The notes beneath the pieces are model-generated. The model ran no database searches and was not told where the DNA came from. It worked only from the letters and a program-made list of their open reading frames with translations. From the NCBI GenBank assembly GCA_026018925.1, contig JAKSZU010000012.1, forward strand, positions 26,029,814-26,093,813: a stretch of DNA of 64,000 nucleotides. The letters run 5' to 3'. The DNA is from Tupaia tana. Lineage: Eukaryota > Chordata > Mammalia > Scandentia > Tupaiidae. Within the stretch, counting starts at the first letter, position 1; each line of letters starts with the position of its first letter. This document shows, piece by piece, positions 10,481 through 62,868 of this stretch. The position numbers and the translations under genes are program-made.

Positions 10481-11419
10481 TCAACCTTTTTTCAAAAAGA
10501 TGCTTAAGACCCTCTCTCGAATCTGCTTTGTCCTCACGCCATAGATGACAGGATTAAGGGCAGGTGGAACAACAACATAGAGATTAGCCAGAAGAACATG
10601 AATGTATACGGGAACATTCCTACCAAACCGGTGGGTCATGAAGGAGAAAAAAGCTGGAGTGAAGAAGACCAGGATGACACAGATGTGGGACCCACACGTG
10701 TTAAGTGCCTTGAGCCTGGCATCCCGAGAAGGAAGGCAGAAGACAGCTTGGAGTATTCTCACATAGGAGATAATGATCAGAACCACATCAATGAGCACCA
10801 TTGATATGAGAATTAATCCAAATATCATGTTGACCTTTATGCTGCCACAGGCCAGCCGAGCAATTCCCATGTGCTCACAGTATGTGTGGGGGATTCTATG
10901 GTGCCCGCAGAAAGGAAGCCTCAAGATGAGAAATACCAGAGGGATAACCAAAATGAAATTGACACCCAACACCACCACCAGAACGAGGCCGATTGTCTTG
11001 TGAGTGAGGATCAGGCTATACCGCAGTGGGTTGCAGATGGCAACGTAGCGATCAAAGGCCATGGCAACCAACACGACAGTCTCCATAGCAGTGAATATAT
11101 GGATGAAGAACATCTGGGCAACACAGCCCCCAAAGCTAATCTCTCTTAAATTAAACCAGAATATGCCCAGCATTTTGGGAATCGTGGATGTTGACAGACC
11201 CAGATCAATGGAAGCTAACATAGCCAAGAAGTAAAACATGGGCTGATGAAGACTGTGTTCAGTCTTGATCACAAACAAGATCGTGATGTTCCCCACAAGG
11301 GCAATCAAGTATACAGAGCAAAAAGGAAACCCAATCCAAATGTGCATTTCTTCAAGGCCTGGAACTCCCAGTAGGAGGAGACAAGAAGGGTGGAATTTGG
11401 TGCCATTTGAGGGGGACAT
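10481..11419 (-). CDS. Class I olfactory receptor, OR52E-type, intact 312 aa
   Basis: Odorant-sensing seven-transmembrane G-protein-coupled receptor; the family acts in olfactory cilia through G-alpha-olf. The single-exon frame is open from ATG (11419) to stop. Visible landmarks are an N-glycosylation site at N5 (NGT), PMFYFLA at residues 60-66, C99 before TM3, the TM3 motif [10 protein letters not shown] around D123-R124-Y125, extracellular-loop cysteines C171/C181/C191, SY at 218-219 in TM5, the TM6 motif [10 protein letters not shown] and NPVIY at 289-293. The 312-aa length is normal for class [21 protein letters not shown] and GVRTKQIRE are OR52E-like; among human genes I recall OR52E6/E8/E4 as closest, so the exact orthologue is uncertain. 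The ATG has G at -3. Its neighbour at 21277 is an OR52N2-type gene on the same strand. I see no inactivating lesion. Confidence 0.93.
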
Positions 11420-21276: not shown

Positions 21277-22233
21277 TTAGGTAAAGCCAATCTTATCTCC
21301 AAGTAAAAATTTGATTACAGCTTCCCGAATCTGCTTGGTCTTGACTCCATAAACAATTGGATTCATGGTAGGAGGCAGTAGAAGATAAAGGTTGGCCACA
21401 ATGATGTGTACGTGCTGGGGAATATTGTGTCCTCCAAAACGATGAGTGAAAAAAGTAAAAAAGGCAGGAACATAGGTGATCACGATAGCACAGATATGAG
21501 ATGTACAGGTGCTGAAGGCCTTGTGGCGAGCATCGGCAGAAGACAGACTCACTACAGCCCGCAAGATCATAGAGTAAGAAATGGAGATACAGCAGATATC
21601 AAACACACCAATGAGGAGAGCAACCATCAGACCATAAATAGCATTGATCTTGAAATTGCCACAGGATACCTTGGCCACGGACATATGGTCACAGTAAGTG
21701 TGAGGAATGAAGTTTCCATGGCAGTAGGGCAGGCGCTTGGTGAGGAAAGTGAATGGGGTGATGAGCATCACACTTCTTAAGAAGGTAGCAAGACCAGCCT
21801 TGGTTATCACAGGGTTGGTGAGGATGGTGGCATAGCGTAAGGGGTAGCAGATGGCCACATAGCGGTCAAGGGCCATGAGCATGAGCACCCCAGACTCCAT
21901 GCCAGTCAACATATGGACAAAAAACATCTGGGCCAGGCATGCATTAAAGTGGATCTCCTTGAGGTTGAACCAGAATATGCACAGCATATTGGGTACCGTG
22001 GTGGTGCATAAGGTGACATCGGTGAAGGAGAGCAAGGCCAGGAAGTAGTACATGGGCCGGTGCAGAGAATCCTCATGGCTGATGAGGTAGATGAGCCCAC
22101 AGTTCCCCACAACAGCAATGAGGTACATGAAACAGAAGGGCAGGGATATCCAGATGTGTGCGGCTTCCAGCCCGGGAACACCATTCAGGACAAAGAATTC
22201 TGGGGTCAGGCTGGAGCAGTTGGCCCCAGACAT
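21277..22233 (-). CDS. OR52N2: Class I olfactory receptor, OR52N2-type gene A, intact 318 aa
   Basis: Odorant receptor (seven-transmembrane GPCR) of the OR52N group. The frame opens at ATG 22233 with N-glycosylation site N5 (NCS). It has PMYYFLA after TM1, the TM3 motif MALDRYVAICYPLRY, LPYCHGNFIPHTYCDHMSVA in extracellular loop 2, the TM6 motif KAFSTCTSHI and NPIVYGVKTKQIRE at the end of TM7. The C-terminal KFLLGDK tail and the FDICCIS segment match the human OR52N2 protein as I remember it, so this is the best candidate for the true orthologue. Gene B at 33903 is about 95% identical over the first roughly 208 residues but much less in the last third. A CTCCTGCAG just 5' of the ATG looks like a splice acceptor, as expected for ORs with an intron in the 5' UTR. 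No disabling change is seen. Confidence 0.94.
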   Translation of the reverse strand: MSGANCSSLTPEFFVLNGVPGLEAAHIWISLPFCFMYLIAVVGNCGLIYLISHEDSLHRPMYYFLALLSFTDVTLCTTTVPNMLCIFWFNLKEIHFNACLAQMFFVHMLTGMESGVLMLMALDRYVAICYPLRYATILTNPVITKAGLATFLRSVMLITPFTFLTKRLPYCHGNFIPHTYCDHMSVAKVSCGNFKINAIYGLMVALLIGVFDICCISISYSMILRAVVSLSSADARHKAFSTCTSHICAIVITYVPAFFTFFTHRFGGHNIPQHVHIIVANLYLLLPPTMNPIVYGVKTKQIREAVIKFLLGDKIGFT

Positions 22234-25570: not shown

Positions 25571-25792
25571 GGGAACCAGCAGTTAGCGTAATGGCTATGT
25601 CTCTGGACTCCCATGTAGTCGACCGCAGTTCGCGTCCCGGACCCGGTGGCTTAAAACTCACACCGGGTGAGTGTGCATGTGCGCCCAAGATCCTGAGAGG
25701 AGAATGGAGGAGAAGGGATTGCAGCATGGTCATCCCTCCTGGGGGGTGATTTCTCGCTTTCTGTCTCTATGTCTCTATAGTGAAAACCTCTC

Positions 25793-25867
<75 letters not shown>
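25571..25867 (+). mobile_element. CYN-like SINE with A-tail grown into (AT)n
   Basis: Full head and body, with the CT-rich 3' part shortened. The A-run (25794-25826) passes into a (TA)n tract to 25871. TSD TATCTGAAAGCAA/TATTTGAAAGCAA. Confidence 0.94.
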
Positions 25868-28522: not shown

Positions 28523-28793
28523 GGGACCAGCAGTTAGCTAATGGCTATGTCGCTGGACTCCCACGTAGTCGACTGTGGTTCGAGTCCCGGACCCGGTGGC
28601 TTAAACTCACGCCGGGCGTGTGTGCGTGCGTGCCCAAGATTCCGAGAGGAGGATGGAGGAGAAGGGATTGCGGCATGGCCATCCCCCCTGGGGGATGATT
28701 TCTCGCTTTCTGTCTCTCTGTCTCTCTCTGTCTGTCTGGCGAGCACACACGCCCTATAGCAAAAACCTCTCCAAAAAAAAAAAAAAAAAAGGT
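28523..28793 (+). mobile_element. CYN-like SINE, full length
   Basis: GGGACCAGCAGTTAGC head with CGAGTCCCGG B box and GCTTAAACTC, tail A18. TSD not clear. Confidence 0.95.
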
Positions 28794-33902: not shown

Positions 33903-34865
33903 CTATTTCATACCTAACATATCTTTTTCCTTAAAAAATAGCTTAATCACTCCTTCCCGAATCTGTTTGGTCTTGACTCCATAAACAATAGGATTCAAAG
34001 TGGGAGGAAACATCAAATAAAGATTGGCAATGATGATATGGACATGGTGGGGAATATTTTTTCCCCCAAAACGATGAGTAAAGATGGAGAATAATGCGGG
34101 AACATACGTGATGATAATAGCACATATGTGGGAGGTACAAGTGCTGAAAGCCTTGTGGCGAGCATCTGCAGAAGACAGACTTACAACTGCCCGTAAGATC
34201 ATAGTATAAGACACAGAGATACAAAACATATCAAAACCCCCAATCAGAAGAGCTGCCAGAAGCCCATAGATGGCATTGATCTTGAAGTTGCCACAGGATA
34301 CCTTGGCCACGGACATGTGGTCACAGTAAGTGTGAGGGATGAAGTTTCCATGGCAGTAGGGCAGGCGCTTGGTGAGGAAAGTGAATGGGGTGATGAGTAT
34401 CACACTCCTTAAGAAAGTGGCAAGACTCGCCTTGGCAATCACAGGGTTGGTGAGGATGGTGGCATAGCGTAAGGGGTAGCAGATGGCCACATAGCGGTCA
34501 AGGGCCATGAGCATGAGCACCCCAGACTCCATGGCAGTCAATGTATGGATAAAAAACATCTGGAACAGGCAAGCATTAAAGTGGATCTCCTTGAGGTTGA
34601 ACCAGAATATGCACAGCATATTGGGTACTGTGGTGGTGCACAAGGTGACATCAGTGAAGGAGAGCAAGACTAGGAAGTAGTACATGGGCCGGTGCAGAGA
34701 ATCCTCATGGCTGATGAGGTAGATGAGCCCACAGTTCCCCACAACAGCAATGAGGTACATGAAGCAGAAGGGCAGGGAAATCCAGATGTGTGCAGCTTCC
34801 AGCCCAGGAACACCAGTCAAGACGAAGAATTCTGGGGTCAGGCTGGAGCTGTTGGCCCCAGACAT
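33903..34865 (-). CDS. Class I olfactory receptor, OR52N2-type gene B, intact 320 aa, mosaic
   Basis: Odorant receptor with all class I landmarks: NSS glycosylation site at N5, MALDRYVAIC in TM3, HTYCDHMSVA in extracellular loop 2, KAFSTCTSHI in TM6 and NPIVYGVKTKQIRE in TM7. The true start is ATG 34865 (MSGAN), aligned with gene A. The frame stays open 10 codons further upstream, but only to a GTG, so that extension is not used. Residues 1 to about 208 are about 95% identical to gene A, whereas the C-terminal third (LIGGFDMFCIS, REGVIKLFF, EKD tail) resembles gene C at 44962. The 43 bp 5' of the ATG also match gene A at all but one position, and the match then stops abruptly. This pattern suggests gene conversion from A. 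I see no stop or frameshift. Confidence 0.92.
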   Translation of the reverse strand: MSGANSSSLTPEFFVLTGVPGLEAAHIWISLPFCFMYLIAVVGNCGLIYLISHEDSLHRPMYYFLVLLSFTDVTLCTTTVPNMLCIFWFNLKEIHFNACLFQMFFIHTLTAMESGVLMLMALDRYVAICYPLRYATILTNPVIAKASLATFLRSVILITPFTFLTKRLPYCHGNFIPHTYCDHMSVAKVSCGNFKINAIYGLLAALLIGGFDMFCISVSYTMILRAVVSLSSADARHKAFSTCTSHICAIIITYVPALFSIFTHRFGGKNIPHHVHIIIANLYLMFPPTLNPIVYGVKTKQIREGVIKLFFKEKDMLGMK

Positions 34866-34908
34866 GATGACTGACTGCAGGAGGGCATTTTCCACTCTTT
34901 AACAGTGT
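34863..34908 (-). promoter_or_regulatory. Conserved 5' flank and probable splice acceptor of OR gene B
   Basis: Same CCCTCCTGCAG acceptor-like motif before ATG 34865. One mismatch to gene A over 43 bp, then no similarity. Confidence 0.45.
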
Positions 34909-42073: not shown

Positions 42074-42607
42074 TGGGGCCAGTAGATGGTGTAGTGATTA
42101 CATCAGTAGATTCCTACATAGCTGATTGCAGTTTGAATCCCAGACCTGGTGGCTTGAAAATCACATTGGGCTCTGGGAACCAGCAGTTGGTGTAGTGGCT
42201 ATGTCGCTGGACTCCCACGTAGTCAACAGGGGTTCACGTCCCAGACCCGGTGGCTTAAAACCCACGCCGGGCACATGTGTGTGCGTGCCCAAGATCCTGA
42301 GAGGAGAGTGGAGGAGAAGGGATTGTGGCATGACCATCCCCCCTGGGGGGTGATTTCTTGCTTCCTGTCTCTGTCTCTCTCTCTGTCTGCCTGGCGAGCG
42401 CACATGCCCTATAGAGAAAACCTCTCCAAATAAAGAAAAAAAAGAAAATCACATTGGGCTCATGTGCATGCGTGCCCAAGATCCTAGGAGAAGAATGGAG
42501 AGGGGATTGTGGCATAACCACGACTCCTGAGAGGTGATTTCTCACTTTCCTTCTCATTGTCTCTCTCTCTCTCTGGCATGTGCTCTATGGCAAAAAACCT
42601 CTTTAAA
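42074..42607 (+). mobile_element. Older CYN-like SINE, split by a younger one
   Basis: GGGGCCAGTAGATGGTGTAGTG head to CACATTGGGCTC, interrupted at 42174-42443, then CATGTGCATGCGTGCCCAAG to AAAAAACCTCTTTAAAAAA. Confidence 0.95.
42174..42443 (+). mobile_element. Younger CYN-like SINE nested in an older copy
   Basis: Full length. TSD GAAAATCACATTGGGCTC (42156-42173, 42444-42461), 18 bp perfect, taken from the older SINE's own body. Confidence 0.97.
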
Positions 42608-44961: not shown

Positions 44962-45930
44962 TTATCTCATACTCAAAGTATCTTTCTCTCTAAAGAACAA
45001 TTTGATCACTCCTTCACGGATCTGCTTGGTCTTCACTCCATAGACAATTGGATTCAAGGTAGGAGGCAGCAACAGATAAAGGTTGGCTATAAAAATGTGG
45101 ACATGGTGAGGTATAGTGCGTCCTCCAAAGCGGTGAGTGAAGAAGTTGAAGAAGGCTGGGACATAGGTGATAACAATAGCACATATGTGTGATGTACAGG
45201 TACTGAAGGCTTTGTGGCGAGCATCTGCAGATGACAAATTTACTACAGCACGGATAATCATGGCATAAGACATGGAGATACAGAACATATCAAACCCTCC
45301 AATCAATATGGCAGCTATGAGACCATATATAGCATTAATCTTGATGTTGCCACAGGATAATTTGGCCACAGACATATGGTCACAATAGGTATGCTGGATG
45401 AGATTGCCCCTGCAGTAAGGAAGACGCTTGATCAGGAAAGTAAATGGAATCATGAGCAATACACTTCGAATGAAAGTGGCAAGCCCAACCTTAGTAATCA
45501 CAGGGTTTGTGAGGATGGTGGAATAACGTAGAGGATAGCAAATGGCCACATAGCGGTCTAGAGCCATAAGCATGAGTACTCCAGACTCCATGCCCGTCAG
45601 CATGTGGATAAAGAACATCTGTACAAGGCAGGCATTAAAGGCAATCTCCTTCAGACTGAACCAAAAGATACATAACATATTGGGGACAAATGAGGTGCAC
45701 CCAGTAACATCTGTAAGGGAAAGCAAGGCTAGAAAGTAGTACATGGGCCGATGCAGGGCCTCCTCATGGCTAATGAGGTAGATGAGCCCGCAATTCCCTA
45801 CAACAGCAATTATGTACATGATGCAGAAGGGCAGGGAGATCCAGCTATGTAAGGCTTCCAGCCCAGGAATCCCATTAAGGATGAAGTATCTTGGTGTCAG
45901 GCTGGAGTTGTTGGCATCATGCTTGTTGGT
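44962..45930 (-). pseudogene. Class I olfactory receptor, OR52N2-type gene C; frame open but no in-frame start ATG
   Basis: The frame encodes an otherwise complete OR: NSSLTP N-terminus, PMYYFLA, MALDRYVAIC, HTYCDHMSVA, KAFSTCTSHI, NPIVYGVKTKQIRE and the REKDTLSMR tail. The frame runs back to an in-frame TAA near 45946 without any ATG; the first in-frame Met is about residue 38, inside TM1. Two tandem ATGs at 45915-45920 sit where genes A and B start, but they read in another frame and stop after seven codons. Aligned with genes A and B, about 4 bp are missing between the ATG and the GCCAAC codons. Either this is a recent pseudogene with 317 otherwise open codons, or an upstream exon supplies the start (an AG precedes the ATGs). 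It could also be a sequencing error. The receptor body shows no other lesion. Confidence 0.8.
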
Positions 45931-45950
45931 CAAATAGAAAACATGTTACT

Positions 45951-57266: not shown

Positions 57267-58229
57267 ATGTCATTTCTAAATGGCAGCAGCCTAACACCAG
57301 CTTCCTTCATCCTAAATGGCATTCCTGGTCTGGAAGAAGTGCATCTGTGGATCTCCTTCCCCCTGTGTACCATGTATAGCATTGCCATTATGGGGAACTT
57401 TGGCCTTATCTATCTCATCTACAGTGAAGAGGTCTTGCACAGACCCATGTACATCTTCCTAGCCCTTCTTTCCTTCACAGATGTGCTCATGTGCACCAGC
57501 ACTCTTCCCAACACTCTCTGCATATTGTGGTTCAACCTTAAGGTGATTGACTTTGAGGCCTGCCTGGCCCAGATGTTCTTTGTGCACACTTTCACAGGGA
57601 TGGAGTCTGGGGTGCTCATGCTCATGGCCCTGGACCGCTATGTGGCCATCTGCTACCCCCTGCGCTATGCCACCATCCTCACTCATTCAGTCATTGCCAA
57701 GGCCGGGCTCCTCACTTTACTTAGAGGTGTGATGCTTGTTATTCCTTTCACTTTCCTCACCAAGCGCCTGCCCTACTGCCGGGGCAACATCATACCCCAC
57801 ACCTACTGTGACCACATGTCTGTGGCCAAGATATCCTGTGGGAACGTCAAGGTGAATGCCATCTATGGCCTGGTGGTGGCTCTCCTGATTGGAGGCTTTG
57901 ATATCCTGTGCATCACAGTCTCCTATACCATGATCCTCCAGGCAGTTGTGAGACTATCATCAGCAGATGCTCGGCAGAAGGCCTTCAGCACCTGCACTGC
58001 CCACATCTGTGCCATCGTCATCACCTACGTCCCAGCCTTCTTCACCTTCTTTACACACCGTTTTGGGGGACATACTATTCCTCCCCACATTCACATTATT
58101 ATGGCTAATCTCTATCTACTCATGCCTCCCACAATGAACCCTATTGTGTATGGGGTAAAAACCAAGCAGATACGAGAAAGTGTTATTAGATTCTTTCTTA
58201 AGGGAAAGGACAGTTCTCATAATATTTAG
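57267..58229 (+). CDS. OR52N1: Class I olfactory receptor, OR52N1-type, intact 320 aa
   Basis: Odorant receptor (seven-transmembrane GPCR), the only OR on the plus strand here. It starts MSFLNGSSLTPASFILNGIPGLEEVHLWISFPLCTMY and ends RFFLKGKDSSHNI, which matches human OR52N1 as I recall it, including length. Landmarks are NGS glycosylation at N5, PMYIFLALLSF, MALDRYVAICYPLRY in TM3, LPYCRGNIIPHTYCDHMSVA, KAFSTCTAHI in TM6 and NPIVYGVKTKQIRE in TM7. The DRYVAIC motif is canonical, whereas the human protein as I remember it carries DHCVAIC, so this copy keeps the ancestral motif. The ATG has an A at -3. Divergent orientation to the OR52N2-type genes matches the human arrangement. No lesion is seen. 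Confidence 0.94.
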   Translation: MSFLNGSSLTPASFILNGIPGLEEVHLWISFPLCTMYSIAIMGNFGLIYLIYSEEVLHRPMYIFLALLSFTDVLMCTSTLPNTLCILWFNLKVIDFEACLAQMFFVHTFTGMESGVLMLMALDRYVAICYPLRYATILTHSVIAKAGLLTLLRGVMLVIPFTFLTKRLPYCRGNIIPHTYCDHMSVAKISCGNVKVNAIYGLVVALLIGGFDILCITVSYTMILQAVVRLSSADARQKAFSTCTAHICAIVITYVPAFFTFFTHRFGGHTIPPHIHIIMANLYLLMPPTMNPIVYGVKTKQIRESVIRFFLKGKDSSHNI

Positions 58230-58509
58230 GGAACTATTTCTGAGATTTTGGAATTCTCTTAATCAGACTGAGATCACCAAATCAACAGGGGACCCTCCAG
58301 ATGAAAACAGATGTCTAGCCACAGAAAATATTTACATATGACTTAGATTCTTCTATCATTTTAGAAAGGGTACCACCATGTTTGTATAAATAAAGATCCT
58401 CTCTTATGAAATTTAATGTATTTCAAAGCTTTATTAGTCACAGAAGACTTTAAATTTCCATGCATTTAATCATCATAGACAGACCTCTCACTCCTGAATG
58501 ACAATCTAC
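58230..58509 (+). other. 3' flank of the OR52N1-type gene
   Basis: AATAAA at 58388 (GTATAAATAAAGATC) is a plausible poly(A) signal about 160 bp after the stop. Confidence 0.45.
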
Positions 58510-58524
58510 AAAATTTTACATACC

Positions 58525-58645
58525 GGGCGTGGTGGCGCCCGCCCTATGGCAAAAACCTTTGAAGACTGGAGGATTGCGGCATCGAGTCCATCTCACTCTC
58601 TCTCTCTGTCTCTCTCGGCGAGTGCACGATTTAAAGAAAAAAAAA
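58525..58645 (+). mobile_element. Chimeric 7SL/CYN retroelement with TSDs
   Basis: A unit of about 120 bp flanked by 15-bp direct repeats (AAAATTTTACATACC at 58510-58524 and 58645-58659). It starts GGGCGTGGTGGCGC, the 5' end of 7SL RNA/Alu. It then has CGCCCTATGGCAAAAACCT, which is the 3' tail of the tRNA SINE, followed by GGATTGCGGCAT, a CT-rich run and GGCGAGTGCACG from the body of the same SINE in permuted order, and a poly(A). The TSDs and the A-tail show it moved as one RNA. It is much shorter than the normal SINE (about 260 bp), and the 7SL piece has no tRNA head. Confidence 0.75.
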
Positions 58646-58660
58646 AAATTTTACATACCG

Positions 58661-58944
58661 ATGTTTGGGCCACTAAGACTACAGTGAAACTTTTGTGAAA
58701 TATTTAAACACTGGCAAAACATAGCCATGTTCACTGATATCTGCACTAATTTAGTTATCTCAGTATTCTCCAGCCAAAATTATTTGCAGTTCATTCTTAT
58801 CTCCTGTTTTCTAACCTAACTTTGCCAGCTGTATTATCCAGTAGTAATACATATGTTCACCAGAAAAGAAGTAAAAGAAGGAAATTGCAACTTATTTGTA
58901 ATACCCAGAAGTTAGAAATAACACCAAGCTCCATCAACATTAAG
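58661..58944. other. No feature recognised
   Basis: Unique sequence between two SINEs. Confidence 0.5.
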
Positions 58945-58957
58945 CTGCATAAATATA

Positions 58958-59235
58958 GGAACCAGCAGATGGCATAATAGCTACGTTGTTGGACTCCCAT
59001 GTAGTCAATTGTGGTTCAAGTCCTGGACATGGTAGCTTAAACTCATGCCAGGCATGTGTGCATGTGTGCCCAGGATCCTGAGAGGAGAACGGAGGAGAAG
59101 GGATTGCAGTGTGGCCATCCCCCCAGGGGGATGATTTCTCACTTTCTGTCTCTCTGTCTCTCTCCGACTTTCTGGCAAGCACATACGCCCTATAGCAAAA
59201 ACCTCTCAAAAAAAAAAAAAAAAAAAAAAAAAAAA
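58958..59235 (+). mobile_element. CYN-like SINE, full length
   Basis: GGAACCAGCAGATGGCATAATAG head, GTTCAAGTCCTGG, tail of about 26 A. TSD CTGCATAAATATA/CTGCAGAAATATA. Confidence 0.95.
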
Positions 59236-59248
59236 CTGCAGAAATATA

Positions 59249-62317: not shown

Positions 62318-62868
62318 ATATTTTTTAGGTTTTTGGCATAGGACGCATGTGCTTGTTAGAGAGAGATAGTAGGAGGAAAAGTGTGAAACAAGCCACCCTC
62401 ACTCCCCAGGGAGGATGGCCATGCCACAATCCTTCCTCCTCAATTCTCTTCCTGGGATTTTGGGCATGAATGCGAATAAGCTTGTCATGATTTTCTTTTT
62501 TATTCTTTTTTTTTTTGGGGGGGAGAGGTTTTTGCTATAGGGCGTGTGCGTTCGCCAGAGAGACAGAGAGAGACAGAGAGACAGAAAGTGAGAACTCACT
62601 CCCCAGGGGGGATGGCCACGCCACAATCCCTTCTCCTCCATTCTCTTCTTAGGATCTTGGGCACGCGCGCACACGCGCCTGGCGTGAGTTTAAGCTGCCG
62701 GATCTGGGACTCAAACCGTGGTCGACTACATGGGAGTTAAGCGGCATAGCCATTATGCTAACTGCTGTTCCCAACCCGTCATGATTTTCAAGCTTCTGGG
62801 CCAGGGCTCATATCACAGTTGGCCATGTGAACGTCCAACATCATAATTACCATGCTACCAGTTGGGCC
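62318..62868 (-). mobile_element. Older CYN-like SINE, split by a younger one
   Basis: Tail and body at 62318-62495 and head (GGGCCCAACTGGTAGCATGG) at 62790-62868; the interruption is a second SINE. Confidence 0.93.
62496..62777 (-). mobile_element. Younger CYN-like SINE nested in an older copy
   Basis: Head GGGAACAGCAGTTAGCATAA. TSD GTCATGATTTTC (62484-62495, 62778-62789), derived from the older SINE. Confidence 0.95.

Follow-up and report, generated by a model that had tools for sequence, protein, structure and literature searches.

At one locus in a 64-kb window (the whole stretch of DNA analysed, 64,000 nucleotides), a short A-tailed insert begins like 7SL RNA and carries pieces of a local tRNA-headed SINE in an unusual order. 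The question raised is whether such a unit was assembled from more than one RNA in a single insertion, and whether 7SL RNA was among its sources.

Borders of the insert

The insert proper was located at 58526-58644 (119 bp), between direct repeats that are identical at 16 of 16 positions (58510-58525 and 58645-58660). The TSD-flanked, A-tailed unit proposed in a preliminary description of this DNA is thus real, with 16/16 repeats and a 3' A-run, while the limits given there (58525..58645, about 120 bp) had to be replaced by the borders above. The features of the locus were as follows.

58510..58525, + strand: 5' target-site duplication AAAATTTTACATACCG, a 16/16 direct repeat, the final CCG of which also equals 7SL nt 2-4
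58523..58538, + strand: 7SL 5'-end-like segment, 15/16 to nt 2-17, containing GGCGTGGTGG, 9/10 to human 7SL box A
58540..58558, + strand: misplaced SINE 3' tail piece CGCCCTATGGCAAAAACCT, 18/19 to SINE consensus 231-249
58559..58590, + strand: middle piece of ambiguous source, in which GGATTGCGGCAT matches the SINE body and AGACTGGAGGATTGC...GAGTCCA can be aligned to 7SL nt 49-72 as well
58591..58628, + strand: SINE CT-rich stretch plus GGCGAGTGCACG, from alignment to the SINE
58629..58636, + strand: ATTTAAAG, 8 bases before the A-run, matched to no source
58637..58644, + strand: A-tail, 8 A ahead of the 3' repeat, the run extending into the AAAA of the repeat
58645..58660, + strand: 3' target-site duplication AAAATTTTACATACCG, a 16/16 direct repeat
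58961..59236, + strand: closest near-full SINE copy, for comparison (BLAST list, alignment)

Target-site duplications of LINE/L1-mediated insertions measure roughly 7-20 bp, and both the duplication and the 3' A-tail of such retroposition are present here. The nick site of the insert reads AC/AAAA, with AC where the L1 endonuclease motif TT/AAAA (PMC13174262, excerpt) has TT, which may count against an L1-type insertion.

Order of the SINE pieces

The consensus of the local SINE, derived from 20 near-full copies picked out of a BLAST list of the window, is about 250 bp long up to the A-tail. It runs from a tRNA-like head with GGTTCGAGTCC through an internal box (GCCGGGCG[C/T]GTGTGCG), a body, a CT-rich stretch and GGCGAGCGCACG to the tail CGCCCTATAGCAAAAACCTCTCC. 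The preliminary description calls this element CYN-like, and it may belong to CYN, a SINE family of colugos. The internal box GCCGGGCGCG (from about consensus position 92; CCGGGCG[C/T]GTGTGCG), missing from the preliminary description, itself resembles the 7SL 5' end at 12 of 16 positions, and this counts against a 7SL template for the insert. A 7SL derivation of the SINE body was weakly supported at best: its score was equalled by 13 of 1,000 dinucleotide shuffles and older copies looked less 7SL-like by eye, so that no such origin is claimed. Two SINE copies (42179-42448 and 62491-62767) are nested in copies of this SINE that have diverged further, with older 5' parts ahead and older 3' parts behind, indicating a long period of activity of the family. 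In the copy at 25575-25820 the greater part of the CT-rich stretch with GGCGAGCGCACG is absent, and the tail abuts a shortened CT stretch.

In the insert, positions 58540-58558 are SINE tail and positions 58591-58628 match the CT-rich stretch plus GGCGAG[T/C]GCACG in 33 of 38 columns (one column being a gap); the tail therefore stands before the stretch that it normally comes after. A degenerate pattern picked up 18 tail motifs in the window, of which this one is misplaced, the other 17 being flanked by CT-rich DNA and an A-run. The 3' end of the insert is without a SINE tail and has ATTTAAAG instead, which was matched to no source in mosaic parsing. All assigned pieces lie in a single orientation inside one direct-repeat pair. 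The order of tail, body and poly(A) reported previously is correct, except that the 'body' is not the body as a whole and consists of short pieces (the 12 nt GGATTGCGGCAT and the CT-rich stretch with GGCGAGTGCACG), and that ATTTAAAG intervenes before the A-run. For the middle 28 nt, the alignments to the SINE (score 30.0, equalled by 0 of 5,000 shuffles) and to 7SL nt 49-72 (30.5, equalled by 4 of 5,000) are of similar quality, which leaves the source of this piece ambiguous.

Exact repeats of at least 14 bp were also found around 6 of the 20 near-full SINE copies, these being 89-98% identical to the consensus; around several others, older and younger, a simple search gave no clear repeat. The exact 16-bp repeat of the insert suggests that its joints were formed at or before insertion and not by later decay, although an identity to the SINE consensus of 82% over the best-aligned 51 bases argues against a young insert. 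The same alignment, together with the fact that most assigned pieces save the 5' end trace to one SINE, would fit a later deletion or rearrangement inside a longer SINE of the ordinary type, or a likeness by chance. Such a history is nevertheless very improbable, as a tail ahead of the body is impossible by deletion from a single SINE and the direct repeats remain exact.

The 7SL-like 5' end

The first 14 bases of the unit had been described as equal to the 7SL/Alu 5' end; the likeness holds and the identity does not, positions 58525-58538 agreeing with human 7SL at 13 of 14 bases (reference sequence from PMC3395682, excerpt). Over 58523-58538 the sole mismatch to human 7SL nt 2-17 is a C-to-T change in a CpG, and when the CCG bases common to the target repeat are left out the match is 12/13. 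Elsewhere in the window, on both strands, the match to 7SL nt 2-17 never exceeded 12/16, and of the eight places that reached this value, reading by eye assigned six to the SINE internal box (CCGGGCG... or CCAGGCG...) and the other two to the tRNA-like region of the SINE. The 16-mer at the 5' end of the insert had one match in the window at up to 3 mismatches, and the 7SL score of a 22-nt segment was equalled by 11 of 20,000 shuffles of that segment. The exact 16-mer is also present in printed Alu DNA, in a stretch that we take to be the Alu right arm. This Alu DNA is that of PMC7576722. The clear 7SL part of the insert comprises nt 2-17 only; nt 49-72 gave a weak match (E 0.09 in a small search), and the remaining 7SL pieces gave E values of at least 4. 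On sequence likeness, the first 16 or so bases are likely to derive from 7SL.

The main rival to a 7SL template is a rearrangement of SINE sequence alone, in which the insert would stem from a SINE dimer or from two SINE RNAs, the first cut at its internal box CCGGGCGTGTGTG, with an internal deletion that reaches the tail, and the second cut within the body. We consider this possible, if rather improbable. At a jump penalty of -11, a mosaic without 7SL can cover 58523-58558 as internal box (58523-58534, one gap) and tail (58535-58558, 3 mismatches), the parse being more fragmented at -8; the internal box is available in the window as CCGGGCGTGTGTGCGT at 28612 (+) and 51014 (-), and only 1 of 1,000 shuffles fits the SINE consensus as well as the first 75 nt of the insert. 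This parse, however, requires one more 1-base deletion and one more deletion joint, and its score falls short of that of the parse with 7SL by 5-8 units. The gain from adding 7SL was equalled by shuffled 7SLs in 1, 0, 0, 3 and 2 of 400 cases under five settings; as 7SL was picked after the match was noticed, these counts carry no correction for the choice of RNA. The 16-mer, moreover, reaches at best 12/16 elsewhere in the window, compared with 15/16 for 7SL.

Class of the element

When the whole first 75 nt were aligned colinearly with 7SL, the score (47.5) was reached by 0 of 1,000 shuffles; against the SINE the same bases scored 43.0, reached by 1 of 1,000. The near-matching SINE score and the 18/19 match to the SINE tail in the middle led us to reject a plain 7SL-derived element. 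Euarchontoglires SINE1 elements, which are 7SL-derived, share 7SL regions 1-63, 76-83 and 267-299 (PMC7245038, excerpt); the insert does not show this set of regions and was accordingly not filed as a 7SL SINE. An Rfam scan of the whole window at the gathering threshold gave 0 matches, and at E values up to 10 positions 58500-58670 returned only a miRNA family (E 2), which we attribute to chance. No tRNA gene was called by ARAGORN, and generic Pol III boxes did not clearly surpass shuffles, which equalled the A box in 946 and the B box in 73 of 1,000 cases. Exact-string scans of prokaryote and viral collections gave nothing, as expected, and are uninformative on the host.

A further reading would make the insert one copy of a small mobile SINE family in which SINE pieces follow a head with a box A of 7SL type. 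In its favour, GGCGTGGTGG matches human 7SL box A at 9 of 10 positions (box A sequence from an excerpt of PMC7245038), about 50 nt further downstream there is a B-box-like GCATCGAGTCC (9/11), and tree shrews and bushbaby have fused 7SL/tRNA SINEs (same excerpt). Against it, the 64-kb window holds one copy of the insert compared with 20 aligned near-full copies of the ordinary SINE, 73 of 1,000 shuffles equal the B-box match, and the Rfam scans were without any 7SL-family match. We regard such a family as unlikely, and it is quite doubtful that the insert is a copy of an unrecorded one in which 7SL box A is fused to tRNA-headed SINE pieces; if true, a composite 7SL/tRNA promoter would have arisen here independently. 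No colugo 7SL SINE is described in excerpts of PMC9141288, PMC2386441, PMC5753468 and PMC1266357, and flying lemurs are named in those of PMC7245038 and PMC5753468 merely as one order of the clade with 7SL SINEs.

Template switching as the favoured mechanism

The insert probably works like known multi-template retro-chimeras: its SINE pieces are out of order, and 7SL is likely, from its sequence, to have been a second RNA species. By a narrow balance of probability, we favour one LINE(L1)-type target-primed insertion, in which two or more RNAs served as template for the first-strand cDNA. Its best reading involves about two template switches and a chimera of an already known kind. Template switching of this sort had been proposed before, and it stands as the best-supported mechanism, with 7SL as a likely partner in only part of the insert. 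cDNA synthesis would have started on the A-tail of a fragment of SINE RNA (CT-rich region plus body), moved to the 3' tail of a second SINE RNA, and finally jumped, close to a G+C-rich microhomology (GCGC / CGCC), onto the 5' end of either 7SL RNA or a 7SL-derived transcript, where copying may have reached about nt 2-5. Non-LTR reverse transcriptases jump from the 5' part of one template to the 3' end of another, which would suit the body-to-tail joint of the insert. How many switches took place and in which order, that 7SL was the final template and that L1 supplied the enzyme are all inferred. Pieces in one orientation within one repeat pair are expected from template switching or from a fused RNA copied once, and both are drawn as routes to chimeras in PMC13174262 (excerpt); a fusion RNA formed ahead of reverse transcription would give the same appearance.

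Several observations weigh against template switching with 7SL. The 7SL piece is short and its first three bases are common to the target repeat, 7SL G1 is missing (with A in its place), ATTTAAAG and the joint bases TTTGAAG are unexplained, and the best-aligned 51 bases share just 82% identity with the SINE consensus.

Relation to known chimeras

Tripartite chimeric retroelements with direct repeats of 14, 15 and 16 bp have been ascribed to double template switches (Gogvadze et al. 2007, PMC2104539, excerpt). As described there, these fungal and mouse chimeras resemble the insert in having three retrotranscript pieces, including a SINE, within repeats of 14-16 bp. They differ in that they have a LINE piece, whereas no LINE piece was assigned here; in the length of the pieces, which in the fungal chimera are long (4369, about 350 and 1113 nt) and in the insert short; and in the swapped order of two SINE pieces in the insert. 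7SL RNA is among the RNAs reported in LINE-1 chimeras (PMC13174262, 2026, excerpt), where, as here, 7SL-type sequence and a retroelement occur in one insertion, but the partner is LINE-1; the insert has a tRNA-headed SINE in that role, and its clear 7SL part amounts to only about 16 nt. The tree-shrew Tu-type SINEs and bushbaby GarnAlu likewise unite 7SL-derived and tRNA-SINE-derived parts in one element (PMC7245038, excerpt); these, however, are families built with 7SL-derived SINEs, whereas the insert is a single copy in the window with the 7SL 5' end alone clear.

Such chimeras illustrate how LINE reverse transcriptase can join RNAs that are unrelated, which has been proposed as one way for new SINE families to arise (PMC13174262, excerpt). 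If the template-switch reading holds, the locus would be a compact instance in which a 7SL head and a tRNA SINE are the partners, of modest weight unless more copies with the same joints exist.

Olfactory receptor surroundings

An open olfactory receptor frame, OR52N1-like (57267-58229, +), is found about 280 bp upstream of the insert. Altogether, five open olfactory-receptor-like frames were seen in the window (10481-11419, 21277-22233, 33903-34895, 44962-45933 (-) and 57267-58229 (+)). The two frames that were searched, against a protein database clustered at 90%, in which a colugo protein could therefore be concealed, matched OR52N1 and OR52N2-like proteins, so that the window looks like an OR52 cluster. 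The best named matches were 92% identical (tarsier, among the best 120 of 3945 matches) and 90% identical (armadillo, among 66 matches listed). Among the matches listed one colugo name occurred, at 79% identity to the receptor at 57267-58229 and at 76% and 78% to two others, and these look like paralogues.
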